A stretch of 64,000 bases of DNA from positions 1,302,001-1,366,000 of the forward strand of contig NVQB01000001.1 of NCBI GenBank assembly GCA_002319075.1, given 5' to 3'. The notes beneath the pieces are model-generated. The model was not told the DNA's origin, did no database searches, and saw nothing but the letters and a program-made list of their open reading frames with translations. The stretch is from Sphingobacteriaceae bacterium (GTDB lineage Bacteria > Bacteroidota > Bacteroidia > B-17B0 > Aurantibacillaceae). Position numbers and translations under genes: made by a program. Below are positions 16,847 through 52,666 of the stretch, one piece after another; positions within the stretch are counted from its first letter, which is position 1; each line of letters opens with the position of its first letter.

Positions 16847-17368
16847 TTAAAGTGAATATTTTTCTTTGATGAACGCTTGCATTTTTTTTATTTCTGCAGG
16901 TTGCGTAATTTTTAATTTCCAAAGAGCATCTACCAAAAGGAGTAAAAGTTCTGTTTCTTTTTCCGGCTTTTTATAATCAAGTTCTGAAAAAGCCTTAACC
17001 AGCAGGGCGTACACGGGCTTGATAAAAGCAGCGTGTTGTTTGCCGGAAATATCCATGAACATAAGCCTGGATTGTAATTCCCAAAAATCAGGCTCTTCTG
17101 TAACAAGTTTATAAGGTAATTCTATGATGTTAAAAATAAATTTACGCGGATCACTTTCTTTCATCATGCCCCGATTTTGCTCGATCACACGCTTGTATCC
17201 ACTTTTGATTATGAAAGTGAGCAATTGCTCTTTGTTTCCAAAATGTTTAAAAATCAATGCTTCAGAAACTCCAGCCTCCTGGGCTATAAGCTGTGTGGTT
17301 GTGCTTCTGTAGCCCTTGTGCGCGAAAAGATTAAGCGCCACTTCACTGATTTTTTGTTTACGATCCAT
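16847..17368 (-). CDS. TetR-family transcriptional regulator
   Basis: A short (173-residue) TetR-type regulator. The N-terminal helix-turn-helix covers residues 1-50 (ISEVALNLFAHKGYRSTTTQLIAQ, VSEALIFKHFGNKEQLL). The ligand domain is unassigned. It diverges from susC at 17617 across 248 bp holding both a LacI-like composite and an 18-bp palindrome AGTAAGTGAATACTTACT. That palindrome belongs to a motif found before all four pectin modules, so this protein is my first candidate to bind it. TetR proteins near polysaccharide loci more often regulate efflux, so the link needs binding data. Confidence 0.88.
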   Translation of the reverse strand: MDRKQKISEVALNLFAHKGYRSTTTQLIAQEAGVSEALIFKHFGNKEQLLTFIIKSGYKRVIEQNRGMMKESDPRKFIFNIIELPYKLVTEEPDFWELQSRLMFMDISGKQHAAFIKPVYALLVKAFSELDYKKPEKETELLLLLVDALWKLKITQPAEIKKMQAFIKEKYSL

Positions 17369-17469
17369 TCGGATAAGTCGTTTTTTTGTTACTCAAATCT
17401 ATTCAAAAAAAGCCGAATTTTTATTTTATAAGCTCCGATAGTTACAAAACTTTGCCCGGACCGCAAACT

Positions 17470-17495
17470 CGCAAACGTTTCCGGCAACGATTGCG
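17470..17495. promoter_or_regulatory. LacI-like composite operator, copy 2
   Basis: A 26-bp element CGCAAACGTT-TCCGG-CAACGATTGCG between tetR and susC. It matches copy 1 at 21 of 26 positions. A further half site CGCAAACT starts at 17462, directly upstream. It is 121 bp before the susC start and can affect either divergent gene. Confidence 0.6.
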
Positions 17496-17553
17496 CAATT
17501 TTTCTTTTAGTTTATTTAACAATAGGGGCAAAAATGTCATACAATTGTTATCG

Positions 17554-17571
17554 AGTAAGTGAATACTTACT
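17554..17571. promoter_or_regulatory. TetR-like palindromic operator upstream of first susC
   Basis: AGTAAGTGAATACTTACT has perfect 7-bp arms around a 4-bp spacer, 45 bp before the susC ATG. Related sites with the same arm-spacer geometry occur at 37178, 41957, 41977 and 50982. Confidence 0.55.
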
Positions 17572-17616
17572 TAAAAAAACAACCAAAAAAAAATACTAAA
17601 TTAAACAAAGCAACTA

Positions 17617-20600
17617 ATGAGAAAACGACTACACACACTAAATCGAGCCGCATTAACATGTCTCTTGTTAATGACTGCATCTCTAATTACTGCACAAACA
17701 CGTAATATTACGGGCCGCCTTATAAGCGCCGGTAATGACACCCTCGTGGGTGCAGTGGTTAAGCAGAAAGGAACAAATGTTGGAACACAAACTGGACCGG
17801 ATGGAAGTTATTCCCTTACAGTTCCGGATACTGCAAATGTTACACTCATATTTTCTTACATAGGATATGCCGACAAAGAAGTTGTTGTAGGATTGCAATC
17901 TTCTGCCAGCCCTGTAATGGAAGACGACTCAAAAATTTTAGACGACGTTGTTGTGGTTGGTTATGGTACCGTTAAGAAAAGTGATCTTACCGGATCGGTT
18001 GCAAGCATTAAACCCGACGAACTCAAAAAAGTTCCGACTGCCAATATTATGGAATCTATTCAGGGTAAAGTTGCCGGTGTGGATATTACGAGAACAAGTG
18101 GAGAGGCCGGCGCGGCGGTTAATGTAACCGTTCGTGGTAACCGTTCGATTACGGCAGGTAACGGACCGTTATATATAGTTGACGGAGTTCAATACTCGAA
18201 CATCCAGGATATCAATCCTAACGACATTCAAAGTATGGAAGTTCTAAAAGACGCGTCCTCTACTGCTATTTATGGATCACGCGGTTCAAACGGTGTTATT
18301 ATCGTTACTACCAAAAGAGGTGCCTCGGGAAAAACAAAAGTGTTCTTTAACAGTTACACAGGTTTTTCGCAGGTGGAAGGGATGCCGGAAGGTTTGAGCG
18401 GTGAGCAGTACATTGCGCTTCGCCGTGAAGCCTACCGTACTAACGGAATATGGAACAGCGTTGCAGATGATCCTAAAATTTTTAACGGTGCTGAATTAGG
18501 CTGGATTGCCGATGGCACTTCAACAAATTATGTTGACAAATTAGTACACAACGGCCTGCAACAAGATTATCAAATTGGTATTTCAGGTGGAACAAACAAA
18601 TTAAAATCTTATTTCTCGTTAGACTACTATCAAGAAAAAGGCATTGTGAAATTAGACGAGTTGAAACGCTACACCGGTCGCGTTAACCTGGATTATTCTG
18701 TAAATAAGTATTTCAAAGTTGGAACACAAACACAGATAACCTATTATGACCAAAGTAAGAGATCGAATGCTATGACAAAAGCCCTTGGTACAACACCACT
18801 AGGACCCGCTTTTGACGACGGAGGAACATTAATTTATTATCCCGGAACAGGAGCCAATCCAAATCCTTTAGCTGACGAGCAAGCGAATGTATATTCCAAC
18901 CTTGGCAACACTTTAAGAATTTTTCCTACTGTTTACGCTGAATTAACTCCATTTAAGGGATTCACGGCCAGAACAAATGTGTCGTTAAATATGACCTCTG
19001 CACAGGAAGGCTTGTATGCCGGAGCATTTAGCGTTGGCCAACTAGGTACGGTTTCAAAATCAAGTATGACAAACAATAACAATAATAATCTTGATTGGCA
19101 GGGAATTTTAAATTACACCAAAGAAATTAAAAACCATTCTTTTGGAATTACTGCATTAACAGAATTGATCCAAAACAAAACGGTTACTATGAATGCGCAG
19201 GGTCAAAACCAATTGGTAGCCTCACAGCTATTTTACAATGTTGGTGCCAACACTCAAAACGTAGCCATTGCAAGTGGTTATTCAAAAACGGCATTAGTGT
19301 CTTTCGCGGGTCGCGTTAATTACGCTTTTAAAAGCAGGTATTTGTTAACAGCTACCATGCGCAGCGATGGAGCATCTGTTCTTGCTGAAGGCAACAAATG
19401 GGATTACTTTCCTTCAGTAGCTGCGGGCTGGCGTTTCAGCGAAGAGAAATTCTTCGCAGGAGCTAAGAAAACTTTCAACACTGCTAAATTAAGAGCCAGT
19501 TATGGATTAGCGGGTAATGCCTCAGTAGCTGCTTATTCTTCTCAAAACACTTTAATCAGAATTCCTTTTGCTTATGGTGATAATTCAGCAACCGGATATG
19601 TTTACAATTCACAAATTGGTAACCCCGATCTTAAATGGGAAAAATCAGCAACTGCAGATATCGGACTTGATATAGGAATGTTGAATGATAGAATTCAGTT
19701 TACGGGTGATGTATACGACACACACACAAACAACTTATTATTGAACCGTGTTCTTCCGCTTTCTACCGGTGTAAGCGCCGTAACTGAAAACGTTGGAAAA
19801 ACCCGTAACCGTGGGATTGAACTATCGTTAACTTCAGTGAATATCCAAAAGAAAAATTTTCAATGGAGTACTACTGTTACCTTTATGAAAAATAAAGAAG
19901 AAGTTAAAGAACTTGTTGGCGGTGTAAACATTTTAAATATCGGAACATCTTCAAATCCACAATACTTAGTAGTTGGTTCACCCGTTAACACCTTTTTTGA
20001 TTACCAAAAGGTTGGCATCTGGCAATTAGGTCAGGAAGATGAGGCTGCTAAATTTGGACAAAAACCCGGAGATATTCATGTGAAAGACGTGAATGGTGAC
20101 GGCAAAATAAATACTGATGACCGTACTGTTCTTGGGTCGCAGGTTCCAAAATGGAGCGGTGGATTTAATTCTGAATTCAAATACAAGGGATTTGATTTGA
20201 GTTTTTACATCTACGCACGTGTTGGTCAAAAAGTTTATTTAAACAACACCGGGAATCTTTACGATCCGCGCGTACAATGGAACAGTGTTAACATGAATGG
20301 TTTTGATTACTGGACACCTGAAAATCCAACAAACGATCTTCCTCGTCCGAACTCTAACTTAACTTATAGCAGCCTTCAATACTATAACACTATTGGTTAT
20401 ATGAATGGTTCTTTTGTGAAGTTAAGAAATGTTCAAATTGGCTATACTTTCCCGACGAGAATTACACAAAAAGTTAAAATCGAAAGACTTAAAGTATACG
20501 TAACAGGAAAAAATCTCATCACCTGGAGCAAGACCAAAAATTATGATCCGGAAATGAACGGCTCGTTAAATAATCCTTTAGTAAGATTATTCATTGGTGG

Positions 20601-20619
20601 TGTAAATATTGATTTCTAA
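17617..20619 (+). CDS. susC: SusC/RagA-family TonB-dependent outer-membrane transporter (pectin module A)
   Basis: Outer-membrane active importer of 1000 residues. A signal peptide ends near residue 26, followed by a carboxypeptidase-regulatory-like domain (ITGRLISAGNDTLVGAVVKQ), the TonB-box-proximal DDVVVVGYGTVKKSDLTGSV, a plug domain (IQGKVAGVDITR, YIVDGVQYSN, SMEVLKDASSTAIYGSRGSNGVI) and a 22-strand beta-barrel ending in an aromatic C-terminus (VNIDF). No STN domain is seen, so it is not of the FecA/anti-sigma signalling type. It forms a pair with the SusD 22 bp downstream. The enzymes that follow suggest rhamnogalacturonan oligosaccharides as cargo. Confidence 0.95.
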   Translation: MRKRLHTLNRAALTCLLLMTASLITAQTRNITGRLISAGNDTLVGAVVKQKGTNVGTQTGPDGSYSLTVPDTANVTLIFSYIGYADKEVVVGLQSSASPVMEDDSKILDDVVVVGYGTVKKSDLTGSVASIKPDELKKVPTANIMESIQGKVAGVDITRTSGEAGAAVNVTVRGNRSITAGNGPLYIVDGVQYSNIQDINPNDIQSMEVLKDASSTAIYGSRGSNGVIIVTTKRGASGKTKVFFNSYTGFSQVEGMPEGLSGEQYIALRREAYRTNGIWNSVADDPKIFNGAELGWIADGTSTNYVDKLVHNGLQQDYQIGISGGTNKLKSYFSLDYYQEKGIVKLDELKRYTGRVNLDYSVNKYFKVGTQTQITYYDQSKRSNAMTKALGTTPLGPAFDDGGTLIYYPGTGANPNPLADEQANVYSNLGNTLRIFPTVYAELTPFKGFTARTNVSLNMTSAQEGLYAGAFSVGQLGTVSKSSMTNNNNNNLDWQGILNYTKEIKNHSFGITALTELIQNKTVTMNAQGQNQLVASQLFYNVGANTQNVAIASGYSKTALVSFAGRVNYAFKSRYLLTATMRSDGASVLAEGNKWDYFPSVAAGWRFSEEKFFAGAKKTFNTAKLRASYGLAGNASVAAYSSQNTLIRIPFAYGDNSATGYVYNSQIGNPDLKWEKSATADIGLDIGMLNDRIQFTGDVYDTHTNNLLLNRVLPLSTGVSAVTENVGKTRNRGIELSLTSVNIQKKNFQWSTTVTFMKNKEEVKELVGGVNILNIGTSSNPQYLVVGSPVNTFFDYQKVGIWQLGQEDEAAKFGQKPGDIHVKDVNGDGKINTDDRTVLGSQVPKWSGGFNSEFKYKGFDLSFYIYARVGQKVYLNNTGNLYDPRVQWNSVNMNGFDYWTPENPTNDLPRPNSNLTYSSLQYYNTIGYMNGSFVKLRNVQIGYTFPTRITQKVKIERLKVYVTGKNLITWSKTKNYDPEMNGSLNNPLVRLFIGGVNIDF

Positions 20620-20641
20620 TTAAAGCATTAAAATAAAGACT

Positions 20642-22273
20642 ATGAAATATTCATATATAAAAGCAGGTTTATTAATCACAATTCTATCAATATCAGTTGT
20701 GGCTTGCAAGAAAAAACTTGAAGAATACAATCCAAGCGGATTAACAGATCAAAGTGTTTATACCACTCCGGCAGGTTTTGAGAGCCTGGTAAACGGAGCC
20801 TATTCCTTCCAGCGCTGGTGGTACGGAAAAGTTCAGGGGTATGCTATCTCAGAAATGGGCACGGACCTTTGGGCAAGTGGCTCTGCAGATCAGTATCCTG
20901 AATTAACGCAATACACAAACTTACAAGGTGTAAGCGAGCCGGTTACTACTGAATGGTCGAAGCTTTATGCTGCGGTGAATATGTGTAACACCGGCCTTGC
21001 AAAAATTGACGGTTCAGGATTAAGTGCAGCTCTAATTAAAACACGTACCGCTGAATTAAAATTTTTAAGAGCATTTTATTATTGGCATATAGTAGAGATG
21101 TGGGGCGGCGTTAATTTTAGTACTGTGCCTACCGAAGGTATTGTTACGACTGCAAACAAGACCCCCGTTGAAAAATTCTATGAGCAAATTTTTGCCGACC
21201 TTACTGATGCTATTGCAGGATTGCCAAACACAACTGCAGACTATGGCAGAGCAACAAAACCAGCAGCCGAGGCTTTTATGGCAAGGATGTGTATAACGCG
21301 CGGACGTCACGCAGATGCAATTACTTACGCAAATAACGTGATTACCAAATACACTTTTTCCCTTTTACCAAACTATGCTGATCTCTGGAAAATGTCAAAT
21401 CTTCAAAATAAAGAAATCGTGTATGCAGTAAATTACTCCTCTAATTTATTATTAAACGACCGTACTGATCCTGTAAACTACCCAACCGGCGACGGTAATG
21501 GAAGTAACAATGGTCATCTTTTCTTTGTTATGAAATATGATGATCAACCTGGGATGGCAAGAGATATAAATGGCGGACGACCATACAATCGCTGGATGCC
21601 TTCGCGCTTTTTACTTGATTTATTTACTACCGGCGACACACGTTACGACGCCTCATTTAACCAGGTTTGGTATTCTAATTCGGCTACACGCCCAGCAGGT
21701 ATGGCACTTGGTGACACGGCGCTTTTCGCGACAAAAAAATCGATAGCTGTAAAATCAACCAAGTACAAAACATTTGACAGAGATGTTGTATACAATGCAA
21801 ACGGGTCTGCGAAAAACAGATTACAGTATGTGGCTTTGAAAAAATTCATGGATCCAACACGTACATCAGTTAACGAACAACAAAGTGCGAGAGATGCGTA
21901 TGTGATCAGGCTGCCGGAAATGTACCTGATTATTGCAGAGGCAAATTTAGCTTTGGGTAACACGGCTGCGGCAGCCACAGCAATTAATACAGTGAGACAA
22001 AGAGCGGCTGGTGGGACTAATGTTCTTGATATAACAGCAGCCGACGTAACTCTTGATTTTATACTGGATGAGAGAGCCCGTGAATTTGCAGGTGAACAAT
22101 TGCGCTGGTTTGACTTAAAACGTACTAATACCTTAGTTAGCCGCGTTCAGGCTCATAATCCGGATGTGGCCGCAAAAATTCAATCTTATCATATAGTTCG
22201 TCCGATTCCTCAAAGTCAGATTGATGCTGTAACAAATAAAGGAGAGTTTTCACAAAATCCTGGTTACCAATAG
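20642..22273 (+). CDS. susD: SusD/RagB-family outer-membrane glycan-binding lipoprotein (module A)
   Basis: Surface lipoprotein lid of the SusCD importer, 543 residues. The lipobox is ISVVAC (Cys22). SusD hallmarks are the TPR helices in the N-terminal half (AELKFLRAFYYWHIVEMWGG at about 140-159) and the C-terminal region with YLIIAEANLALGN, ERAREFAGEQLRWFDLKR and the terminal PRPIPQSQI-like IVRPIPQSQID/NPGYQ. It follows susC by 22 bp. A strong hairpin just after its stop probably marks the end of the high-expression susCD transcript. Confidence 0.95.
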   Translation: MKYSYIKAGLLITILSISVVACKKKLEEYNPSGLTDQSVYTTPAGFESLVNGAYSFQRWWYGKVQGYAISEMGTDLWASGSADQYPELTQYTNLQGVSEPVTTEWSKLYAAVNMCNTGLAKIDGSGLSAALIKTRTAELKFLRAFYYWHIVEMWGGVNFSTVPTEGIVTTANKTPVEKFYEQIFADLTDAIAGLPNTTADYGRATKPAAEAFMARMCITRGRHADAITYANNVITKYTFSLLPNYADLWKMSNLQNKEIVYAVNYSSNLLLNDRTDPVNYPTGDGNGSNNGHLFFVMKYDDQPGMARDINGGRPYNRWMPSRFLLDLFTTGDTRYDASFNQVWYSNSATRPAGMALGDTALFATKKSIAVKSTKYKTFDRDVVYNANGSAKNRLQYVALKKFMDPTRTSVNEQQSARDAYVIRLPEMYLIIAEANLALGNTAAAATAINTVRQRAAGGTNVLDITAADVTLDFILDERAREFAGEQLRWFDLKRTNTLVSRVQAHNPDVAAKIQSYHIVRPIPQSQIDAVTNKGEFSQNPGYQ

Positions 22274-22282
22274 TCAAATTTT

Positions 22283-22312
22283 TAACTTTATAAAAAGTGT
22301 GTGAAGCAATTC
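22283..22312 (+). terminator. 13-bp perfect hairpin with GCAA tetraloop after susD
   Basis: The stem AAAAGTGTGTGAA pairs with TTCACACACTTTT around a GCAA (GNRA-type) loop at 22296-22299, followed by TATTTTTTA. It begins 9 bp after the susD stop. It can serve as an intrinsic terminator or as an mRNA-stabilising 3' structure with partial read-through into the GH105 gene 39 bp further on. Confidence 0.75.
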
Positions 22313-22350
22313 ACACACTTTTATTTTTTAATTCTTTCTTTAATAGTTCT

Positions 22351-23496
22351 ATGCTTAATTTTAAAAAAATAGTTTCCGCTTTTCTTTTCATCACATTCTT
22401 TTCCGGATCTATTCCCCTGAATGCGCAAACCCTTCCCGATAAAAAACAAGTATTATCCTCTATGCAACTTGCCAATTCGTATTTCATGGCAAAATGGCCG
22501 GACGCAGGAAAAGATATTACCGTAAAAGAAATTACCCGCCCCAGCAATATATGGACAAGAGCCGTTTATTATGAAGGCCTCATGGAACTTTATAAAACAG
22601 ACAAACAGAAGAAATACCTTGATTACGCGGTACAATGGGGCGAAGCTCATAAATGGGGCCTTCGCAAAGGAGTAGAAACCCGTAATGCTGATAATCAATG
22701 CTGCGGACAAATTTACTTTGATGTTTATAAACTAACCAAAAAACCAGAATGCATTAAGGACATAAAAGCATCTATTGACCTTATGGTTAAAAGTGATAAG
22801 GAAGATGACTGGAACTGGATTGACGCTATTCAAATGGCAATGCCTGTTTTTGTGCGACTTGGTGTGGAATACAAAGACACGAGTTATTTTAATAAAATGT
22901 ACAAACTCTATGCTTTTGCAAAGTATAAACATGGAGGAAATGGCTTATATAATGCCGCCGATAAATTATGGTGGAGAGATAAAGATTTTGTTCCTCCGTA
23001 TAAAGAGCCTAACGGTGAAGACTGCTACTGGAGTCGTGGTAATGGCTGGGTAGTTGCCGCACTGGTGCGCGTTTTAGAAAAATTACCAAAATCAGATCCA
23101 CACTATAAAGAGTATTTACAGGATTATAAAGATATGATGGGCGCTTTATTGCCTATACAACACGCCGATGGACTTTGGACCGCCAGCCTGCACGATTCAA
23201 CAAATTACGGAGGAAAAGAAATTACCGGAAGTTCGCTTTTTATTTATGGAATGGCCTGGGGAATAAATAATAAACTACTTGATAAAAAAATATACTTACC
23301 TGTTATTGCAAAATCATGGAATACAATTGTAAAAGATGCCGTTCATGCTGATGGTTTTTTAGGGTATGTTCAGGGAACGGGGAAAGAACCGAAAGACGGG
23401 CAACCTGTAACTTACACAAGCGTTCCGGACTTTGAAGATTATGGCCTGGGATGTTTCTTACTTGCAGGTACCGAAATCTATAAATTAAAACGTTAA
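22351..23496 (+). CDS. GH105 unsaturated rhamnogalacturonyl/galacturonyl hydrolase
   Basis: Predicted periplasmic or surface (alpha/alpha)6-barrel hydrolase of 381 residues that removes delta-4,5-unsaturated uronates from pectin oligosaccharides by hydration of the double bond. A signal peptide (MLNFKKIVSAFLFITFFSG.. LNAQ) sets the start at 22351; the open frame reaches 22297 but that start lies inside the terminator hairpin. GH105 motifs are DDWNWIDAIQMAMPVF with the catalytic Asp, GEDCYWSRGNGWVVAALVRVL and EITGSSLFIYGMAWGINN. Unlike the other two GH105 genes here it has no extra domain. Whether rhamnogalacturonan or homogalacturonan products are preferred cannot be told. Confidence 0.9.
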   Translation: MLNFKKIVSAFLFITFFSGSIPLNAQTLPDKKQVLSSMQLANSYFMAKWPDAGKDITVKEITRPSNIWTRAVYYEGLMELYKTDKQKKYLDYAVQWGEAHKWGLRKGVETRNADNQCCGQIYFDVYKLTKKPECIKDIKASIDLMVKSDKEDDWNWIDAIQMAMPVFVRLGVEYKDTSYFNKMYKLYAFAKYKHGGNGLYNAADKLWWRDKDFVPPYKEPNGEDCYWSRGNGWVVAALVRVLEKLPKSDPHYKEYLQDYKDMMGALLPIQHADGLWTASLHDSTNYGGKEITGSSLFIYGMAWGINNKLLDKKIYLPVIAKSWNTIVKDAVHADGFLGYVQGTGKEPKDGQPVTYTSVPDFEDYGLGCFLLAGTEIYKLKR

Positions 23497-23498
23497 AT

Positions 23499-23574
23499 CC
23501 GGGATCAGATTATTGTTTTTTATTCATTAAAATGTTAGTGATTTTAGGATTACAAGACCGTAATCTGCTCCGGG
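23499..23574 (+). other. long-range inverted repeat upstream of the unassigned hydrolase
   Basis: CCGGGATCAGATTA (23499-23512) can pair with TAATCTGCTCCGG (23561-23573) with one bulge, leaving a loop of about 48 nt, followed by GGTTTTCTTTCTTTC. It could be a terminator for the upstream GH105 or part of a leader for the next operon. Confidence 0.35.
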
Positions 23575-23613
23575 GTTTTCTTTCTTTCTAAACTATTTAA
23601 ATTCTTAAAAAAA

Positions 23614-23630
23614 CAGACAATACAGGACAG
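23614..23630 (+). promoter_or_regulatory. CAGGACAG-type motif upstream of the rhamnogalacturonan enzyme operon
   Basis: CAGACAAT followed after one base by CAGGACAG, 34 bp before the ATG at 23664. The second unit is identical to that at 37135-37142. It is a weak candidate for the direct-repeat operator seen at 37125 and 14501. Confidence 0.3.
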
Positions 23631-23663
23631 TGTTTTGATTAATAATACCAATATTTGAAAAGC

Positions 23664-25796
23664 ATGAAACACATTGCCTATTTACTTATTTTTATTTTTG
23701 TTAGCGGGCATTTTTTTGCGCAGGAAAAAATAAACCGGAAAGAAGTTGTTCAAAGACATAGAGTTGAATTAAAAAAACCAGATACTCTTTCATCTCTTAC
23801 AGTGGGCAACGGCGAGTTCGCCTTTACAGCAGACATCACAGGTTTGCAAACATTTCCTAAAGAATACCAAAACGGAGTACCGCTGGGAACCCAGTCAGAA
23901 TGGGGATGGCACAGCTTTCCTAATACGGAGAACTATAAGTTTGAAGAAACTTTCCGGTATTACGATTTAGATAACCGTAAAATTCCCTACTCCGTTCAAT
24001 TAAAAGAGCAGAGAGGAAAAGATGCCTGCGAGTATTTTCGTAAAAACGCTCATCGTTTACAATTGGCAAATATCGGAATGGATATTTACAAAAAAGATGG
24101 CACTCTTATTCAACTCAAAGACCTTACAGATTGTTCGCAGACGCTTGATCCCTGGTCGGGAGAACTATCAAGTACTTTTAACGTAGAAGGAGAGGAAATA
24201 AAAGTTACTACTTACGGACATCAGCAAAAAGATTTAATAGGTTTTAAAATAAATTCAAATTTATTACAACAAGGAAAAATAAAGATTAATATCAAATTCC
24301 CCTTTCCAACTGCTCAATTTTCAGATATGGGTGTTTATTATGGCGATGCTGAAAAACACAGCTCACAAATAACCACCAACAAAAAAAACAGCGGCATAAT
24401 TAAACATACTTTAGATACAAGCACTTATTTTCTGAACGTAAACTGGTCAAATAAAGCCGAACTAACCGAAAAATCTAAACATTATTTCAGTATTAGTCCT
24501 GATGCCTCAAGTGCAACCTTTGAGTGCACTATTCTTTTTACAAAAAACAATAAACTTCAAAACACTGACAATTTCGCTTCTGCAAAAACAAGCAGTGAAA
24601 CAAGTTGGGAAAAATTCTGGCAATCAGGCGGAGCAATTGATTTTAGTGGAAGCACAGACACCAGAGCCAATGAACTTGAACGCAGAATTATTCTTTCACA
24701 ATATCTTACCAAAGTGCAATGCGCGGGTAATTGTCCACCACAGGAAACCGGTTTAACATACAATAGCTGGTATGGTAAACCTCACCTTGAAATGTACTGG
24801 TGGCATGCCGCGCATTTTGCACTTTGGAACCGTACTGATTTACTTGAAAAAAGTATGCAATGGTATTTTGCAGCTTACAAAGGAGCGCAGGAAATTGCTA
24901 AACGACAAGGATACAAAGGCGCACGCTGGCAAAAAATGACGGACAATGCGGGAAACGAAAGTCCTTCATCTATAGGCGCGCTGCTCATCTGGCAACAACC
25001 TCACCTTATTTATTTAGCCGATTTGGTTTATAAAACCAGGAAGGATGAGAAAACCCTTGACAAATATAAAGAACTGGTATTTGCTACTGCAGATTTCATG
25101 GCGTCATTTCCTCAATATGACAAGGAAAAAAAACACTACAATTTAGGGAAAGGTTTAATTCCGGCACAGGAATGCTTTAATGCAGCAGACACTTATAACC
25201 CCACTTATGAGCTGGCTTACTGGCACTGGGCCCTGAACAAAGCGCAGGAATGGCGGATACTATCAGGCCTGGAAAGAAAAAAAGAATGGGACGATGTTAT
25301 CAAAGCCTTAGCTCCTCTTCCACAAAAAAACGGTGTGTATTTAGCAGCAGAAAGTGTGCCCGATTGTTACGCTGCTGACAGTAAGTATTTAATCGACCAT
25401 CCTGCGGTTCTTGCCGCTTTAAGTACAATTCCGCCCTCTAACGGTTTAGATACCGCCGCAATGCACCGTACATTTAATTGGGTAGATAAAGTATGGACCT
25501 GGGAACACACCTGGGGCTGGGATTTTCCCTTAGTGGCGATGACAGCTGTGAGACTAAACTCACCTAAGCAGGCTTTGGATGCGTTATTTATGAACGTTCA
25601 AACCAACACTTATTTACCCAATGGCCATAATTACCAGGACGAACGCCTGACCATCTATTTGCCCGGAAATGGCGGACTATTATCAGCTGTAGCACTGATG
25701 TGCGCTGGTTCAGAAAATTCAAAAATTGAAAATCCCGGTTTTCCAAAAGACGGTAGCTGGAAAGTGAAATGGGAGAATTTAAATAAAATGCCTTAA
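23664..25796 (+). CDS. exported six-hairpin glycoside hydrolase-like protein, family unassigned (GH65/GH95-like fold)
   Basis: A 710-residue exported protein (signal peptide KHIAYLLIFIFVSGHFFAQ; ATG at 23664 preferred over a TTG nine bases upstream). Residues about 25-310 look like the beta-sandwich that precedes GH65/GH95-type catalytic domains (SLTVGNGEFAFTADITGLQT). Residues about 330-690 look like an (alpha/alpha)6 barrel: SWYGKPHLEMYWWHAAHFALW, PAQECFNAADTYNP, WTWEHTWGWDFPLVAM. Conserved Glu/Asp/His in those motifs are candidate catalytic residues. I do not recognise a CAZy family. It heads an operon with GH105, CE12, GH106, GH2 and CE12, so a side-chain or backbone sugar of rhamnogalacturonan is a likely target. 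Confidence 0.7.
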   Translation: MKHIAYLLIFIFVSGHFFAQEKINRKEVVQRHRVELKKPDTLSSLTVGNGEFAFTADITGLQTFPKEYQNGVPLGTQSEWGWHSFPNTENYKFEETFRYYDLDNRKIPYSVQLKEQRGKDACEYFRKNAHRLQLANIGMDIYKKDGTLIQLKDLTDCSQTLDPWSGELSSTFNVEGEEIKVTTYGHQQKDLIGFKINSNLLQQGKIKINIKFPFPTAQFSDMGVYYGDAEKHSSQITTNKKNSGIIKHTLDTSTYFLNVNWSNKAELTEKSKHYFSISPDASSATFECTILFTKNNKLQNTDNFASAKTSSETSWEKFWQSGGAIDFSGSTDTRANELERRIILSQYLTKVQCAGNCPPQETGLTYNSWYGKPHLEMYWWHAAHFALWNRTDLLEKSMQWYFAAYKGAQEIAKRQGYKGARWQKMTDNAGNESPSSIGALLIWQQPHLIYLADLVYKTRKDEKTLDKYKELVFATADFMASFPQYDKEKKHYNLGKGLIPAQECFNAADTYNPTYELAYWHWALNKAQEWRILSGLERKKEWDDVIKALAPLPQKNGVYLAAESVPDCYAADSKYLIDHPAVLAALSTIPPSNGLDTAAMHRTFNWVDKVWTWEHTWGWDFPLVAMTAVRLNSPKQALDALFMNVQTNTYLPNGHNYQDERLTIYLPGNGGLLSAVALMCAGSENSKIENPGFPKDGSWKVKWENLNKMP

Positions 25797-25801
25797 GACC
25801 G

Positions 25802-27160
25802 ATGAAAAAAATAATCTTACTATCCGCCTTCGCCGCAAGTTTTACATACGCACACGCTCAATACACGAGTGGTAAAGGAAACGATGTTACCAGCCCGCTT
25901 CATTTAATGAAACCTGACTATGTAACTCCGTATTCGGCCATGAGCAAGGAAGACATTAAAAAAGTGATAGACCGAGTTTATGCTTATCTCGATGCGGTAA
26001 CACCTGCGCAGATGGTAAACAAACAAACCAACGAAGTGGTTAGCGATATTCTAAAACTGGATACAAATACAATTGTTCAACCTGGCGATTACCGCTTGAC
26101 AAGTTATGAATGGGGTGTTACCTATTCTGCTTTTTTGCGCGCTACTGAAACTACCTCAGATAAAAAATATTCAGAGTATGTCAAAAAACGTTTCGATTTC
26201 CTTGCCACCTGGGTTCCACCTGTAAAAAAATTAGTGGATGCAGGTAAGTATAAAACCAAAGACTTCCCTTTACACCAACCAATTGCACCACATGCGCTAG
26301 ATGATGCCGGAGCGGTGTGCGCTGCTATGATCAAAGCAACAAATGCCGGATTAAATACAAACCTCCGTCCTCTTATTGATAATTACATTGCTTATGTGGC
26401 AACAAAAGAATACAGATTGGCTGACGGAACATTGGCCCGTAACCGTCCGCAAAAAAACACCTTATGGTTAGACGATCTATACATGGGAGTTCCCGCAATC
26501 GCTAATATGGGAAAACTAACAAACGAAAAAAAGTATTTTGATGACGCTGTTAATCAACTTAAATTATTTACTGAACGCATGTTTAATAAAGAGAAAGGTC
26601 TTTACATGCACGGGTGGGTAGAGGGCATGGAGCAACACCCGCAATTTCACTGGGGACGCGCTAATGGTTGGGCGATTTTAACCATGGTTGAATTGCTAGA
26701 CGTACTACCAGAAAATCATGAAGGAAGACCATATGTACTATCGCAACTAAAAGCACATGCGAAAGGCTTAGCGTCCTATCAATCGGGCTTTGGATTCTGG
26801 CATCAATTATTAGATCGTGAAGATTCTTATCTGGAAACTTCTGCCACAGCCATCTACGCTTATTGTTTTGCGCATGCTATTAATAAAGGGTGGCTGGATG
26901 CTAAGGCCTACGCGCCAGCAGCTATGTTAGCATGGAATGCCGTAGCCACAAAAGTAAATGATAAAGGGCAAGTAGAAGGTACCTGTGTTGGTACCGGAAT
27001 GGCCTTTGATCCTGCATTTTATTATTATCGTCCTGTAAATGTTTTCGCTGCGCACGGATATGGTCCGGTAATTATGGCCGGTGCCGAAATGTATGAACTT
27101 ATGAAAACGAGTCCCCTTAAACTTAATGACAGCTCCATTCAGTACTACAAAGACAAATAA
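25802..27160 (+). CDS. GH105 unsaturated rhamnogalacturonyl hydrolase (YteR/YesR-like)
   Basis: A 452-residue exported GH105 enzyme with signal peptide MKKIILLSAFAASFTYAHAQ. The (alpha/alpha)6 domain shows NTLWLDDLYMGVPAIAN with the catalytic Asp, LYMHGWVEGMEQ, FHWGRANGWAILTMVELLD, FWHQLLDREDSYLETSATAI and VGTGMAFDPAFYYYRPVN. It should release unsaturated galacturonate from the non-reducing end of rhamnogalacturonan oligosaccharides. It is 5 bp downstream of the six-hairpin hydrolase and 6 bp upstream of CE12, so all are one transcript. It differs from the GH105 at 22351 in motif details, suggesting distinct specificity. Confidence 0.92.
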   Translation: MKKIILLSAFAASFTYAHAQYTSGKGNDVTSPLHLMKPDYVTPYSAMSKEDIKKVIDRVYAYLDAVTPAQMVNKQTNEVVSDILKLDTNTIVQPGDYRLTSYEWGVTYSAFLRATETTSDKKYSEYVKKRFDFLATWVPPVKKLVDAGKYKTKDFPLHQPIAPHALDDAGAVCAAMIKATNAGLNTNLRPLIDNYIAYVATKEYRLADGTLARNRPQKNTLWLDDLYMGVPAIANMGKLTNEKKYFDDAVNQLKLFTERMFNKEKGLYMHGWVEGMEQHPQFHWGRANGWAILTMVELLDVLPENHEGRPYVLSQLKAHAKGLASYQSGFGFWHQLLDREDSYLETSATAIYAYCFAHAINKGWLDAKAYAPAAMLAWNAVATKVNDKGQVEGTCVGTGMAFDPAFYYYRPVNVFAAHGYGPVIMAGAEMYELMKTSPLKLNDSSIQYYKDK

Positions 27161-27166
27161 AGCCAG

Positions 27167-28537
27167 ATGTTATTTAAACAAATAATTAAGATCAGTGTTG
27201 TTACTTTGCTTGCGTTGTATGTTACAAAAACTTACAGCCAAAAAAATACAGATCTTAAGTTTGATTTTGGAAATAATACTGCTCCATCAGGATTTATAAA
27301 AATAACTCCACAAACAAAATTTACTTACAACCTCGGTTATGGATTTGTGAATACTACAGATCTTGTGAGTATCAGTGACTCTTCAAAAAACACTTTTTCC
27401 AGAGGATATATTACCAGCAATAAACCTTTTTTTTTCGCTGTAAAACTGCCTGATGGAAATTATGATGTAACCATTACTCTTGGCGATGGCACTGGAAGAT
27501 CAGCCACAACTGTTCGCGCAGAATGCAGACGTTTGTTTTTACAAAATGTAAAAACAAAGCAAGGTGAAATTCTTAAACAAAGTTTTACCGTACACGTTAA
27601 AGATAGCCTCATAAGAAACGCTGAAGACAAAATTATTAGTTCCGTTAAATTAAAACCAAGAGAACGGAGTTATTTACATTGGGACAACTTACTTACCCTG
27701 GAGTTTAACGATAGCCTTCCGAAAGTAAGGATGATCGAAATTAAAAGAAATGAAAAAGCTATAACTGTTTTTTTAGCCGGCAATTCTACGGTAGTTGACC
27801 AGGACCGTGAACCCTGGGCGGCGTGGGGACAGTTCTTTCCCTCGTTTTTTGAATCGCAAAAAATATGCATTGCTAACTATGCAGAGTCGGGAGAGACCTT
27901 AAAGGCTTTTGAAAAAGAAAACCGCCTGGCGAAGCTTATGAGTCTGGCAAAAAAAGGAGATTACCTTTTTATTGAATTTACACACAACGATCAGAAACCT
28001 GGCGGTAATCATTTAGATCCTTTTACCACCTACAAAGACACCTTAAAATCATGGATCCGCCAGGCAAAAAAAAGAAACATCATTCCAGTTCTGGTCACCT
28101 CGATGCACAGAAGAGTTTTTGATTCAAGCGGGCATGTAGTGAATACCTTGCTGGACTATCCGGAAGCTATGCGCCAGGCTGCCCGGGAAGAAAAAGTAGT
28201 ACTGATAGATTTGAATGCCATGAGCAAAGTACTTTACGAAAGCTGGGGTGTCGAAAACTCAGTTAAAGCATTTGTGCATTATCCGGCACATACCTTTCCA
28301 GGACAGGATCTCGAATTAAAAGACAACACACATTTCAATCCTTATGGCGCTTACGAACTGGCACGCTGTGTAATAAGTGAATTGCACCGATCGAATTTGC
28401 CTTTGAAAAACTATTTAAAAAAAGATATTTCAGATTTTGATCCATCTAAACCCGACGCCTTTTCAAACTGGTATTGGCCGCTTAGTCCATTAACAGAATC
28501 AGTAAAGCCGACGGAAATTAAACTCAACGAACTATGA
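27167..28537 (+). CDS. two-domain CE12 rhamnogalacturonan acetylesterase
   Basis: A 456-residue exported esterase. After a signal peptide, residues about 25-190 form a beta-sandwich carrying DLKFDFGN and GFVNTTDL, usual in two-domain CE12 enzymes. Residues about 195-420 are an SGNH hydrolase: block I FLAGNSTVVDQ (Ser nucleophile, with Asn in place of the usual Asp of GDS), block III FTHNDQKPGG, and the Asp/His pair in DNTHFNPYGAYEL. Predicted role is O-deacetylation of galacturonic acid in rhamnogalacturonan. Its stop overlaps the GH106 start by 4 bp (ATGA). Confidence 0.9.
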   Translation: MLFKQIIKISVVTLLALYVTKTYSQKNTDLKFDFGNNTAPSGFIKITPQTKFTYNLGYGFVNTTDLVSISDSSKNTFSRGYITSNKPFFFAVKLPDGNYDVTITLGDGTGRSATTVRAECRRLFLQNVKTKQGEILKQSFTVHVKDSLIRNAEDKIISSVKLKPRERSYLHWDNLLTLEFNDSLPKVRMIEIKRNEKAITVFLAGNSTVVDQDREPWAAWGQFFPSFFESQKICIANYAESGETLKAFEKENRLAKLMSLAKKGDYLFIEFTHNDQKPGGNHLDPFTTYKDTLKSWIRQAKKRNIIPVLVTSMHRRVFDSSGHVVNTLLDYPEAMRQAAREEKVVLIDLNAMSKVLYESWGVENSVKAFVHYPAHTFPGQDLELKDNTHFNPYGAYELARCVISELHRSNLPLKNYLKKDISDFDPSKPDAFSNWYWPLSPLTESVKPTEIKLNEL

Positions 28538-31425
28538 TAAAAAAGATTTTTCTCTTCAGCGTATTTTCTCTAGCCCTTTCAGGCACTTCACAAACGCAGT
28601 GGCCGACAATAACCCAGGCAAATAAACCATGGACCCGCTGGTGGTGGGAAGGAAGCGGCGTTGACAAAGAAGGTTTAAGTGCTGCGATGAAACTCTACCA
28701 GCAAGCAGGACTTGGCGGTTTAGAAATAACTCCCATTTACGGAGTAAAAGGCGCGGAAGATAAATTCTTAAATTTCTTAACACCCCAATGGACCGAAATG
28801 CTTCAGTATACTTTAAACGAAGCGGCTAAACTAAACCTGGGCATAGACATGGCAACCGGCACGGGTTGGCCTTTTGGCGGTCCCTGGGTTAAACCGGCAG
28901 ATGCTTGTAAAAATATTCATCTAAAAACATACAGCTTAAAAGAAGGCGAAGAATTAAAAGACACGATCTATTTTACGCAAAAAACCATGGTGCGAACCGT
29001 AAGTGGAAAACCAGTAGACATCACCACACTTTCCTATCCTATTGCAACAAATAAGAATTTACAGACCTGCGCCTTTGATCAGGTTGTTTATCCAATTCCT
29101 CTCGATCTTCATGTGTTAATGGCCTATTCTGATAAAGGAGTTGTTATTGATCTTACAAAAAAAGTAAATGCAAAAGGCAAATTAAACTGGAAAGCTCCGA
29201 AAGGAAACTGGAATCTTTACGCACTGTTTATGGGTTGGCATGGCAAACAGGTCGAACGGGCCGCTCCTGGTGGTGAAGGAGATGTTATAGATCATTTTAA
29301 CGAACAAGCTTTAAAAAATTATCTTTCAGAATTTGACAAAGCATTTAAAGGAAAAGACTTATCCGGTTTAAGAAGTTTTTTTAACGACTCTTACGAAGTA
29401 GACGATGCGCGAGGTCAAAGCAACTGGACTCCGGAGTTTTTCAAAGAATTCAGTGCAAGACGAGGTTACGATCTAAGAAATGAACTCCCATCGCTTTACC
29501 AGATTGAAAAATCTGAAAAGACAGCTCGCGTTCTGTATGATTATCGCTTAACTATTTCTGAACTACTTTTAGAAAAATTTACCAAGCCATGGCATACATG
29601 GGCAAAAGAAAAAGGAAAATTAATACGCAACCAATCGCATGGATCTCCTGCCAATATTCTTGATTTATATGATGCTATCGATATCCCGGAAACAGAAGGA
29701 AAAAACGCCATGCGTTTTAAATTTGCAACTTCAGCGGCCAACGTAAGCGGCAAACCTTTGGCATCAGCAGAAGCATCTACATGGCTCAATGAACATTTTG
29801 TTTCTAAATTAAGCGACGTTAAAAAAAACCTCGATGATTATTTTGTTGGAGGGGTAAATCATATTTTTTACCACGGTACAAATTACTCTCCCCAAAATGA
29901 TGCATGGCCGGGCTGGTTATTTTATGCTGCAGTGCATTTTACTCCTTCAAACCCTTTCTGGAAAGATTTTGGAACACTCAATAATTATGTAGCGCACTGC
30001 CAGTCTTTTTTACAAAAAGGAAAGTCAGATAATGATGTGCTGGTTTACTTCCCTTACAATGATAAAATATCTGAAGTAAATAACGAAGCTGATTACCGCC
30101 AAACCTATTCTGAACACGATCCGAAACATGTATCCGGATTTTTATATCACTTTGATGGCATGAATGGTTTTGAAAAAACTGATTTCAAAACATCTTCAGA
30201 CATGCTACTTGAAAAAGGATACACTTTTGATTTTATTTCTGACAAACAACTTGAACTGACAACCTCTACAGGAGGACTTCTGGAAACTACGGGCAATTCT
30301 TACAAAACAATTTTGCTGAGCAATACAAAATACATTAGCCTGCAAACCTTTACCAAACTTGCGGACCTCGTAAAATCAGGCGCAACCGTTATTTTCTATA
30401 AAGATTCTCCCTCTCTTGTTCCAGGACTATCGCATTTGAAAAAAAACCAGGCCGGACTGGACGCCCTTTTAAAACAATTAAATTACAGCAAGACCTCGGT
30501 TACCTCTATACAACAAGCGGTTTTAGGTAAAGGAAAATTTATTAAAGGAGACGACCTTTCTGAACTTTTAAAATTTGCTTCTGTAAGCAGAGAAAGTCTT
30601 GCTGATAAAGGTCTCGGTTTTGTGCGCCGTAAATTAGGAACTGGCCACTACTACTTTATTACAAATTCAGGTACCAACAGAATAAACGATTACGTTAGCA
30701 TAGAAAGTAAAGGGGCCACAGTAGTTTTATTTGATCCTATGTTCGAAAGAAAAGGCCTCGCTAAAATTAAAAAAGACGATGGTGGAAAAATAGAAGTTTT
30801 TCTTCAATTGGAACCAGGTGAAAGCTGCATTTTGCAGGTCACCCCTACCATTGTTAATGATGTTCTTTTTCCTTACAGCAAGTCTAACGGTTCTGCAGAA
30901 GTGCTAAAAGGAAAATGGATTGTAAAATTTTTAAGCGGAGGCCCGGTGTTGCCGGCAAGTTACGAAACTGAAAATCCCGCGCCATGGACGGCCCAGTCGG
31001 CAGCAGACTACCAGAATTTTTCCGGAACGGCCGAATACAGTACCACATTCGATAAGCCAACAACCAATTCTGAAGCCTATCAGCTTGATCTTGGAAAAGT
31101 TGAGGAAAGCGCTGAAGTAATTTTGAACGGAAAAAAAATGGCCACACTTATTGGACCGAATTACAAGGTAATTATTCCTGCAGCTTCGTTACAAGACAAT
31201 AATCAACTACAGATAGTAGTAACGAATGGAATGGCTAACAGAATTATTGATCTTGAAAAAAGAGGTGTGGAATGGAAAAAATTCTACAACGTTAACTTTC
31301 CGGCGCACGATGCCGAAAACAGAAACAAAGACAACTTATTTACTGCTAAAAGCTGGACAGTGCGTCCGTCGGGCCTTACAGAAAAAGTAACACTAAGCCC
31401 CATTACACTTGAACATAAACCTTAG
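28534..31425 (+). CDS. GH106 alpha-L-rhamnosidase
   Basis: A 963-residue exported enzyme predicted to cleave terminal alpha-L-rhamnose from rhamnogalacturonan oligosaccharides by an inverting mechanism. The N-terminal GH106 signature is NKPWTRWWWEGSGVD, followed by LGGLEITPIYGVKG and GIDMATGTGWPFGGPWV. Further family segments are RSFFNDSYEVDDARG, LIRNQSHGSPANILDLYDA and a C-terminal galactose-binding-like beta-sandwich (about 840-950; YQLDLGKVEESAEVILNGKK). The length is normal for GH106. It is translationally coupled to CE12. It fits with the GH105 enzymes, which expose rhamnose after removing the unsaturated uronate. Confidence 0.93.
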   Translation: MIKKIFLFSVFSLALSGTSQTQWPTITQANKPWTRWWWEGSGVDKEGLSAAMKLYQQAGLGGLEITPIYGVKGAEDKFLNFLTPQWTEMLQYTLNEAAKLNLGIDMATGTGWPFGGPWVKPADACKNIHLKTYSLKEGEELKDTIYFTQKTMVRTVSGKPVDITTLSYPIATNKNLQTCAFDQVVYPIPLDLHVLMAYSDKGVVIDLTKKVNAKGKLNWKAPKGNWNLYALFMGWHGKQVERAAPGGEGDVIDHFNEQALKNYLSEFDKAFKGKDLSGLRSFFNDSYEVDDARGQSNWTPEFFKEFSARRGYDLRNELPSLYQIEKSEKTARVLYDYRLTISELLLEKFTKPWHTWAKEKGKLIRNQSHGSPANILDLYDAIDIPETEGKNAMRFKFATSAANVSGKPLASAEASTWLNEHFVSKLSDVKKNLDDYFVGGVNHIFYHGTNYSPQNDAWPGWLFYAAVHFTPSNPFWKDFGTLNNYVAHCQSFLQKGKSDNDVLVYFPYNDKISEVNNEADYRQTYSEHDPKHVSGFLYHFDGMNGFEKTDFKTSSDMLLEKGYTFDFISDKQLELTTSTGGLLETTGNSYKTILLSNTKYISLQTFTKLADLVKSGATVIFYKDSPSLVPGLSHLKKNQAGLDALLKQLNYSKTSVTSIQQAVLGKGKFIKGDDLSELLKFASVSRESLADKGLGFVRRKLGTGHYYFITNSGTNRINDYVSIESKGATVVLFDPMFERKGLAKIKKDDGGKIEVFLQLEPGESCILQVTPTIVNDVLFPYSKSNGSAEVLKGKWIVKFLSGGPVLPASYETENPAPWTAQSAADYQNFSGTAEYSTTFDKPTTNSEAYQLDLGKVEESAEVILNGKKMATLIGPNYKVIIPAASLQDNNQLQIVVTNGMANRIIDLEKRGVEWKKFYNVNFPAHDAENRNKDNLFTAKSWTVRPSGLTEKVTLSPITLEHKP

Positions 31426-31468
31426 GTAGAAAAACTTTCTCTTAACAGTTTCACTAAAACTAAATGCA

Positions 31469-31951
31469 ATGAAATCAATGATTCACGAAGGCGTAATGCC
31501 AAAAATCAAAACCTTAAGTAAAAAACTAATCTTAACACTCGCCCTTATGACAAGTATTTCAACAACCACAATCGCACAATCAAAAGAAGAAAAAGAAGTA
31601 GCAAGCGCCCTAGAAGCTTTACGAGTTGCCATGGTTGACGCTGATAAAAAAGGCCTGGAAGAAGCAGCATCAGAAGATCTTAGCTATGGTCACTCTGGTG
31701 GTCATGTAGAAGGTAAAGCAGAGTTTGTAGATAAAATTGCAAGCGGAAAATCTGATTTCGTTACCATTGAGGTTTCAAACCAGACCATTAAAATTGTGGG
31801 TGATAATGCCATTGTAAGACATGACCTTAAACTGGAAACCAACGATGGTGGTAAGCCAGGAAATGTTTCACTACACGTTTTATACGTTTGGAAAAAACAG
31901 CATGGCCATTGGAAAATGATCGCCAGGCAAGCAGTTAAAATTGCGCACTAA
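31469..31951 (+). CDS. exported NTF2-like (DUF4440/SnoaL) protein
   Basis: A 160-residue protein with an N-terminal signal segment (KKLILTLALMTSISTTTIAQ) and an NTF2-like alpha+beta cone domain (about 38-160): ALEALRVAMVDADKKGLEEAASEDLSYGHSGG and the terminal VWKKQHGHWKMIARQAVKI, typical of DUF4440. The ATG at 31496 gives a more usual signal-peptide length, so the first 9 residues may not be translated. No function is established for such proteins in polysaccharide loci. It is embedded between GH106 and GH2 on the same strand with short gaps, so it is expressed with them. Confidence 0.8.
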   Translation: MKSMIHEGVMPKIKTLSKKLILTLALMTSISTTTIAQSKEEKEVASALEALRVAMVDADKKGLEEAASEDLSYGHSGGHVEGKAEFVDKIASGKSDFVTIEVSNQTIKIVGDNAIVRHDLKLETNDGGKPGNVSLHVLYVWKKQHGHWKMIARQAVKIAH

Positions 31952-31985
31952 TTAATAACCTGCTTCGGCAGTTTAAATTCCATAA

Positions 31986-34868: not shown

Positions 34869-34869
34869 C

Positions 34870-35631
34870 ATGAAGACAAAATTTTTAAACTATTTACTCT
34901 TAAGTCTGGTCTTTTCTTTATTTGCTTTCGCTAAAAAAGCAGAGAACATAAAAGTCTACCTGATCGGTGATTCTACCTGTGCCATTAAAGAACCGAATAA
35001 ATATCCTGAAACCGGCTGGGGCATGCCGTTTGTGTATTTCTTTGACTCCAGCATAGTTGTTGATAACCGAGCTAAAAACGGAAGAAGCACAAGAACATTT
35101 ATTGAAGAAAAATTATGGCAACCGGTAGTTGAGAACCTAAAAGAAGGAGATTATGTTTTTATTCAGTTCGGACATAATGACGAGGTGAAGACAAAAAAGA
35201 GTTACACGACTGAAGAAGAATTCAAAAAAAATCTGGTGCGTTATATAACAGAATCAAAAAATAAAAAAGCACTTCCCATTCTTATTACCCCTGTGGCAAG
35301 AAGAAAATTTGACAGCGTTGGCGTTTTTGTAAAAACACATGAAGTTTATTCTGCTATTGTGAGAGAAGTGGCCAGGCAGCAGCAGATTCCGCTCATAGAT
35401 TTGGATATTAAAAGCACAGAGCTTCTTATAAAAATGGGAGTAGAAAATTCGCGCATGCTTTTTTTACAACTTGCTAAAGGCGAGCATCCCAATTATCCCG
35501 AAGGTATAGAAGACAACACACACTTCAATGAATTTGGTGCTAGGAAAATAGCACAAATCGTTTTAGAAGACATCCGGAAATTGAATTTACCACTTGCCGC
35601 ACATATCGTGAAGCCCGGTGAAAAAAAATAA
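34870..35631 (+). CDS. CE12 rhamnogalacturonan acetylesterase
   Basis: A 253-residue exported SGNH esterase starting at the ATG at 34870, one base after the GH2 stop; the open frame reaches 34774 but that would lie inside GH2 and lack a signal peptide. Catalytic motifs are YLIGDSTCAIKE (Ser), NRAKNGRSTRTFIEE (Gly block), IQFGHNDEV (Asn) and DNTHFNEFGARKIA (Asp/His). The single-domain length fits CE12. It closes module A, and its 3' end is 3 bp from the convergent amt stop. Confidence 0.92.
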   Translation: MKTKFLNYLLLSLVFSLFAFAKKAENIKVYLIGDSTCAIKEPNKYPETGWGMPFVYFFDSSIVVDNRAKNGRSTRTFIEEKLWQPVVENLKEGDYVFIQFGHNDEVKTKKSYTTEEEFKKNLVRYITESKNKKALPILITPVARRKFDSVGVFVKTHEVYSAIVREVARQQQIPLIDLDIKSTELLIKMGVENSRMLFLQLAKGEHPNYPEGIEDNTHFNEFGARKIAQIVLEDIRKLNLPLAAHIVKPGEKK

Positions 35632-35634
35632 TCA

Positions 35635-52652: not shown

Positions 52653-52666
52653 AACCCCTTTTGTTT

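Follow-up and report, generated by a model that had tools for sequence, protein, structure and literature searches.

The question raised by this locus is which bond is cleaved by P0001, a 710-residue protein encoded in a rhamnogalacturonan region at positions 23664 to 25796 (plus strand) of the window, i.e. the whole 64,000-nucleotide stretch of Sphingobacteriaceae DNA that was analysed. The gene is an open frame from ATG to stop, and the same frame on the opposite strand contains stops throughout. The protein starts with a signal-like N-terminus (Sec type, judged by eye), and its frame and residue positions confirmed the length and the two motifs given in an earlier note on this DNA, YWWHAAHFALW (residues 378-388) and WTWEHTWGWDFP (residues 611-622). 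With P0001 as the query, no Pfam or NCBIfam family was matched at E<=1, which supports the earlier assignment, as far as these two databases go, to a GH65/GH95-type six-hairpin enzyme outside any known family. A phmmer search of PDB sequences returned an unrelated protein as its best match (E 0.12), and in the source genome there was neither a paralogue at E<=10 nor a GH65 at E<=0.001.

An AlphaFold2 model of P0001 built from 40 sequences was confident (mean pLDDT 93.1, pTM 0.93) and predicted an N-terminal beta-sandwich, a helical linker and an (alpha/alpha)6 barrel, bearing out the sandwich-then-barrel layout that had been proposed. The closest solved structure, ranked first by both Foldseek (2.0e-25) and VIA-align (Z 30.0 over 587 residues, 2.9 A, 16% identity), was the GH65 alpha-1,2-glucosidase FjGH65A (7fe3), which shares this domain layout. 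It was followed in VIA-align by human PGGHG and kojibiose phosphorylase (Z 26.6), by GH95 (2eae, 7kmq and 4ufc at Z 23.7, 26.2 and 25.2, with 12-15% identity) and by the GH139 2-O-methyl-L-fucosidase BT0984 (9hyq; Z 23.6, 14% identity), a rhamnogalacturonan enzyme that was compared by fold alone and whose substrate is rhamnogalacturonan II (RG-II), not rhamnogalacturonan I (RG-I). As these nearest folds are hydrolases and phosphorylases, an identity as a polysaccharide lyase was rejected.

Profile-profile comparison (hhalign) of 58 sequences of family P, as P0001 and its relatives are called here, gave 98.4% and 97.6% against GH65 hydrolase-like profiles of four and 13 sequences, 78.7% against GH95 (six sequences) and 1.1% against a GH65 phosphorylase-like profile (16 sequences), with the 'hydrolase-like' and 'phosphorylase-like' labels assigned from length and residue pattern. 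The controls were two GH105 groups (15.0 and 0.3%), DUF4450 (1.3%), PL11 (1.1%), GH28 (0.5%), GH106 (0.1%) and GH2 (0.1%). Searched against PDB sequences, the hits of the family P profile A1 were to GH65 and weak, with E values from 1.9e-5 to 2.8e-3. The Pfam GH65 domain (PF03632/PF03636, cut-off 27 bits) scored 13.6-20.5 bits in five of six further members and gave no match in the sixth, and in a six-frame genome search two members reached 22.1 (the highest score) and 20.8 bits, so that the clear match to an established family that the earlier note had named as counting against it did not occur. The GH95 family PF22124 gave no match above its cut-off in P0001 or six further members and 620 bits for a true GH95 protein encoded alongside one relative. 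Nor was there a Pfam match of P0001 to GH106 or GH78, which are separate sequence families; this bears on family membership rather than on rhamnosidase activity. A tree was built from 64 sequences (27 of family P, 13 + 18 of GH65, and 6 of GH95 as root), and in it the 31 GH65 sequences formed a clade excluding family P with 100/100 SH-aLRT/UFBoot support. The GH65 clade had full support in both programs, whereas the family P branch received 0.008 in FastTree and 83.3/89 in IQ-TREE; since the alignment is very divergent, the tree is taken solely as evidence that family P is not nested within GH65. P0001 as a plain GH65 member was rejected, given the Pfam scores below cut-off, the replaced subsite residues described below and the position outside the GH65 clade.

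Some match to family P at E<=1 was present in 60 of 296 genomes of the phylum. Of these, 19 genomes from 17 genera, the source genome counted, encode true members (E < 1e-180). In one further genome (G203) the match is a fragment of 67 residues interrupted by two stops, and the matches in the remaining 40 are weak or due to chance. One of the weak matches (L021) is GH65 by Pfam, and L022-L027 align with it. The GH65-aligning frames of L023-L027 are 1,025 aa long and have an extra N-terminal part that appears HAD/beta-phosphoglucomutase-like by eye. Among GTDB species genomes, at least 598 stretches encode a relative (598 of the 600 pattern matches listed), and the best 80 of these, which are not a random sample, were used for analysis of gene context; the titles of all 80 genomes name taxa that we take to be Bacteroidota. 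No title or abstract opening on family P was found in the open-access PMC literature. Family P is a real and widely found enzyme family of the GH65/GH95 superfamily, associated with RG-I utilisation, that has no name in Pfam or NCBIfam.

In the window, the gene run around P0001, an 'operon' as defined by spacing and strand, lies on the plus strand. Upstream of the family P gene are a SusC-like transporter (17617-20619, recognised by eye), a SusD-like lipoprotein (20642-22273, by eye and position) and a GH88/GH105 protein resembling unsaturated rhamnogalacturonyl hydrolases (22297-23496; PF07470, 8.2e-81). Only 5 nt downstream is a second GH88/GH105 protein (25802-27160; PF07470, 2.1e-89), followed after 6 nt by an acetylesterase-like GDSL esterase with an AGA-YXIM galactose-binding-like domain (27167-28537; Pfam), which overlaps by 4 nt a BT4145-like GH106 alpha-L-rhamnosidase (28534-31425; NF049897, 1.5e-251, below the equivalog cut-off). 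The run continues with a 160-aa DUF4440/SnoaL-like protein (31469-31951), a GH2 closest to the exo-beta-1,4-galactosidase BT4156 (31986-34868; NF049891, 1.6e-251, below the equivalog cut-off) and, by Pfam and clustering, a GDSL esterase (34774-35631) of the same cluster as esterases adjoining the relatives. The locus is a rhamnogalacturonan locus, as had been noted, although the claim that all partners are rhamnogalacturonan enzymes does not extend to the DUF4440/SnoaL-like protein. Farther along lie a GH28 (37238-38656, plus strand; Pfam), a sulfatase, a GDSL esterase (40082-40870, also of the relatives' cluster), a second SusC-like gene (by eye), an oligogalacturonate-lyase-like protein, a second GH28, a GH88 protein, a pectinesterase and galacturonate catabolic genes, and the uronate catabolism genes in the window comprise UxaC, altronate dehydratase and KduI. 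The surroundings of P0001 are a pectin region.

The 80 related loci, 65 of them at least 20 kb long, were annotated by cluster labels that each rest on one scanned representative, on window members or, for SusC, on inspection by eye. The commonest partner was DUF4450 (40 loci), followed by GH28 (34), PL11 (20), GDSL (16), a GntR-LacI regulator (16), GH105a (15), FGGY kinase (14), PL1-like (13), GH43a (13), RhaI (13), RhaD (11), RhaT (8), GH105b (7), GH106 (6) and RhaM (6). At least one rhamnose gene was present in 23 of the 80, and some member of the labelled rhamnogalacturonan/rhamnose set, which includes the less specific labels GDSL, PL1-like and GH2, in 65. The 15 loci with none include four on short contigs (about 10 kb at most), three GDSL fusions, and one (L072) with a single gene of a GH88/GH105-like cluster that lies outside the labelled set and occurs in 11 loci (window member 52661-54586). 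Against NCBIfam, the representatives for RhaD, RhaT and RhaM score above the cut-offs, and those for RhaI (508 of 647 bits) and the FGGY kinase (62 of 528 bits) fall below. RhaM lies on the same strand and within two genes of the family P gene in L044, L060, L104 and L105. The most telling locus is L104, where the family P gene, the gene for the rhamnose mutarotase RhaM, that for the rhamnose symporter RhaT and GH105 follow one another on one strand with gaps of 10-14 nt, and where the three scanned flanking genes serve other roles (a fatty acid desaturase, DUF4197 and CinA); in L011 the order is RhaT, RhaM, family P gene. The cluster of the window's DUF4440/SnoaL-like protein is present in 10 of the 80 loci. 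At L044:12153-14687, the GH95 protein scoring 620 bits is encoded directly after the family P gene, with both superfamily branches side by side.

The galacturonate of RG-I is acetylated. In three loci a GDSL domain precedes the family P domain within one open frame (L084, 1.2e-15; L093, 5.6e-15; L089, 6.8e-13), and such fusion or adjacency fits a substrate that needs deacetylation, as RG-I galacturonate does. Co-occurrence was assessed in the 296 phylum genomes as 19 positive against 277, with the other 41 matching genomes counted as negative and shared ancestry ignored: DUF4450 was found in 9/19 versus 0/277 (p 2e-12), GH106 in 16/19 versus 28/277 (p 3e-12), PL11 in 11/19 versus 6/277 (p 3e-11; strong matches alone 10/19 versus 3/277) and RhaT in 10/19 versus 19/277 (p 9e-7). 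The presence of GH106 in 16 of the 19 positive genomes led to rejection of the idea that the family P gene replaces GH106.

DUF4450, like family P, belongs among six-hairpin barrel proteins, is about 1,130-1,260 aa long (with one shorter protein at a contig end) and is encoded within two genes of the family P gene in 37 loci; L032:12297-15953 and L042:12087-15518 are two examples from the 40 loci that carry it. All nine DUF4450-carrying genomes of the 296 also carry a family P gene; the source genome of the window has no DUF4450 at E<=0.001. A model of the L042 protein from 24 sequences had a mean pLDDT of 76.9, its confidence being weak in parts of the barrel, and its ranking differed between VIA-align, which placed alpha-L-rhamnosidases, presumably of GH78, first (Z 22.3), and Foldseek, which placed GH94-type phosphorylases first. 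Pfam gave a borderline six-hairpin rhamnosidase match (24.8 bits versus 24.5). With no match among PDB sequences at E<=0.01, a PL27-type rhamnose-glucuronate lyase found no support, and DUF4450 was not named in the open-access PMC literature searched. The DUF4450 protein may be the rhamnosidase of these loci.

Across 99 members of family P, the Asp and Glu residues kept in at least 98% are D190, D326, E337, E339, E361, E376, E503, E516, D578, D620 and E704. E503, conserved in 99/99, lies opposite the GH65 general acid (E472 of FjGH65A) in most alignments, including hhalign and HMMER to 3wiq and 4ktp, with Q502 rather than E503 in that place in three alignments (including HMMER to 4ktr and MAFFT). 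It is the sole acidic residue around the GH65 acid column, and the general acid of GH65 appears from these sequences to be kept as E503; both this position and that of the base shift by one or two columns between alignment methods. The FjGH65A residues were transferred by motif via the GH65 hydrolase-like sequences, FjGH65A itself being outside the alignments. At most one of the four GH65 subsite -1 residues W343, D344, K538 and Q539 is kept: W343/D344 fall on W380/H381 by hhalign versus L375/E376 by MAFFT, and K538/Q539 on D578/H579 by MAFFT (from 18/18 phosphorylase-like and 11/13 hydrolase-like sequences) and on other, non-K/Q positions by hhalign. The GH95 profile (hhalign) sets its HRH motif on H579, in agreement with MAFFT. 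GH95 also shares an EM..W motif in both alignments, and its TGWS loop lies opposite WGWD of family P by MAFFT.

The candidate base region of family P comprises D620 and H655-N656. PMC8626586 identifies Glu616 as the catalytic base of FjGH65A. Its counterpart, located through a conserved Glu/Phe pair, spaced nine residues apart, of the GH65 hydrolase-like sequences, lands in the stretch from G654 to N656, on G654 by MAFFT or in an ambiguous gap beside N656 by hhalign. In this stretch family P has no conserved Asp or Glu and an invariant H655-N656. Asn421 and Asn423 of the GH95 enzyme AfcA are likewise not kept, falling on K372/H374 by MAFFT and in a gap by hhalign; H374 is present in 99/99 members and position 372 is K in 90 and R in 9. 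D620 lies by MAFFT in the loop that matches the phosphate-binding loop of GH65 phosphorylases and TGWS of GH95. In PMC12282258, an Asn primed by another residue is proposed as the base in both GH95 and GH139, with a Glu acid paired with the proposed non-carboxylate base in BT0984, which has a Gln411-Asn412 motif, so a base other than a simple carboxylate has precedent. D620 acting directly as the base would be as good a reading as a non-carboxylate base.

It is very probable that family P is an alpha-glycosidase of the GH65/GH95 fold with E503 as the acid. That it is an inverting exo-alpha-glycosidase, most likely an alpha-L-rhamnosidase acting on RG-I oligosaccharides, stands somewhat short of an even chance. 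P0001 would be exported and would act either in the periplasm or on the cell surface, cleaving one terminal alpha-linked sugar, presumably with inversion, as reported for FjGH65A, GH95 and GH139 (PMC8626586; PMC12282258). E503 would act as proton donor to the leaving group, while D620 and/or H655-N656 would position the attacking water. The sugar released would most likely be L-rhamnose, from the non-reducing end of RG-I oligosaccharides (Rha-alpha-1,4-GalA) exposed through the action of PL11-type lyases and GH105 and deacetylation by GDSL esterases, with R421, K424 and K/R372 gripping the galacturonate carboxylate. RhaM beside an inverting rhamnosidase would make sense because the beta anomer would be released. 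A bolder reading, to which we assign a rough probability of 0.38, is a new glycoside hydrolase family that would form a third branch beside GH65 and GH95 and take backbone L-rhamnose off RG-I, with a base that coincides neither with the Glu of GH65 nor with the Asn of GH95 and would be either D620 itself or H655-N656 with D620 as the priming residue. It would work together with the uncharacterised, rhamnosidase-like DUF4450 proteins.

The genes of L-rhamnose catabolism, the in-line RhaM and RhaT, PL11, GH105 and the GDSL fusions point to the RG-I backbone, i.e. to rhamnose or galacturonate. An exo-alpha-D-galacturonidase with the same fold and inversion, holding GalA at subsite -1 and cleaving the GalA-alpha-1,2-Rha bond of the backbone, would be suited by the conserved cationic R421 and K424 (each 99/99) and K/R372, by the uronate catabolism genes near in the window and the UxaC near the family P gene of L060, and by the RhaM/RhaT gene order, as this cleavage would free rhamnose too, a point against the rhamnosidase reading. 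The rhamnosidase reading is further weakened by the GH106 of the same gene run and of most positive genomes, beside which a second rhamnosidase would be partly redundant, and by the 15 loci without a labelled gene and the below-cut-off scores of RhaI and the FGGY kinase; if DUF4450 is the rhamnosidase, the family P enzyme would more likely be a galacturonidase. However, some GH28 enzymes perform the GalA-Rha cleavage step and GH28 is already present in 34 of the 80 loci, the compact run of L104 comprises a rhamnose mutarotase and a transporter with no uronate gene among its four, and K424 lies in both alignments opposite the Trp of a W-E pair that GH65 hydrolase-like sequences conserve (taken as W391/E392 of FjGH65A), a subsite +1 rather than -1 residue. 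We consider a galacturonidase unlikely. The same backbone context leaves less support for the side-chain sugar proposed in the earlier note, i.e. an alpha-L-fucosidase, alpha-L-galactosidase or alpha-galactosidase on RG-I side chains, which we regard as quite unlikely. The nearest folds do include GH95 and GH139, which act on L-fucose, L-galactose and 2-O-methyl-L-fucose, a GH2 close to BT4156 lies in the gene run, and a GH95 gene follows the family P gene in L044; against this, the context is one of L-rhamnose catabolism, with RhaT, RhaM and RhaD passing curated cut-offs, and the catalytic Asn pair of GH95 is not kept.

A divergent GH65 phosphorylase or alpha-glucosidase, acting on an alpha-glucoside and merely located in these loci, would agree with GH65 being the closest fold and with the apparently conserved general acid. 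Neither the K-Q pair of subsite -1 nor the W-E pair of the kojibiose +1 subsite is kept, however, and family P falls outside the fully supported GH65 clade, is linked to rhamnogalacturonan genes and has a phosphorylase-like profile match of 1.1%, making this explanation highly improbable; the small probability that is left goes to other activities. With the rhamnosidase reading preferred, the activity proposed for family P would be that of GH106 and GH78, one of which is encoded in the gene run of P0001, i.e. an alpha-L-rhamnosidase on the GH65 fold. RG-I ranks among the major pectins, and a small number of rhamnosidase and galacturonidase families are believed to carry out its breakdown. As a family that many Bacteroidota carry and that is linked to rhamnose uptake, family P would add an unassigned step to this pathway, allow automated annotation to name a protein missed by Pfam and NCBIfam, and bring a new catalytic arrangement into a well-studied superfamily.

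The family P gene had also been said to head its operon. This is partly right: the SusC-like, SusD-like and first GH105 genes lie upstream on that strand, but a 167-nt gap separates them from the family P gene, which begins a second block. Within this gap is a stable hairpin (23495-23600, plus strand; -29.1 kcal/mol, z -4.5) with a U-rich tract after it, resembling a terminator or attenuator. A genome search matched only its own copy below E 0.5, which gave no support to a dispersed repeat, and Rfam gave no match at the gathering score over window positions 17000-36000. The hairpin may attenuate or terminate transcription after SusC-SusD-GH105. Farther downstream, a minus-strand ammonium-transporter-like gene (35635-36942, by eye) breaks the run of pectin genes, and the sulfatase-family gene (38659-40092) between the GH28 and the GDSL esterase is unexpected cargo for RG-I.
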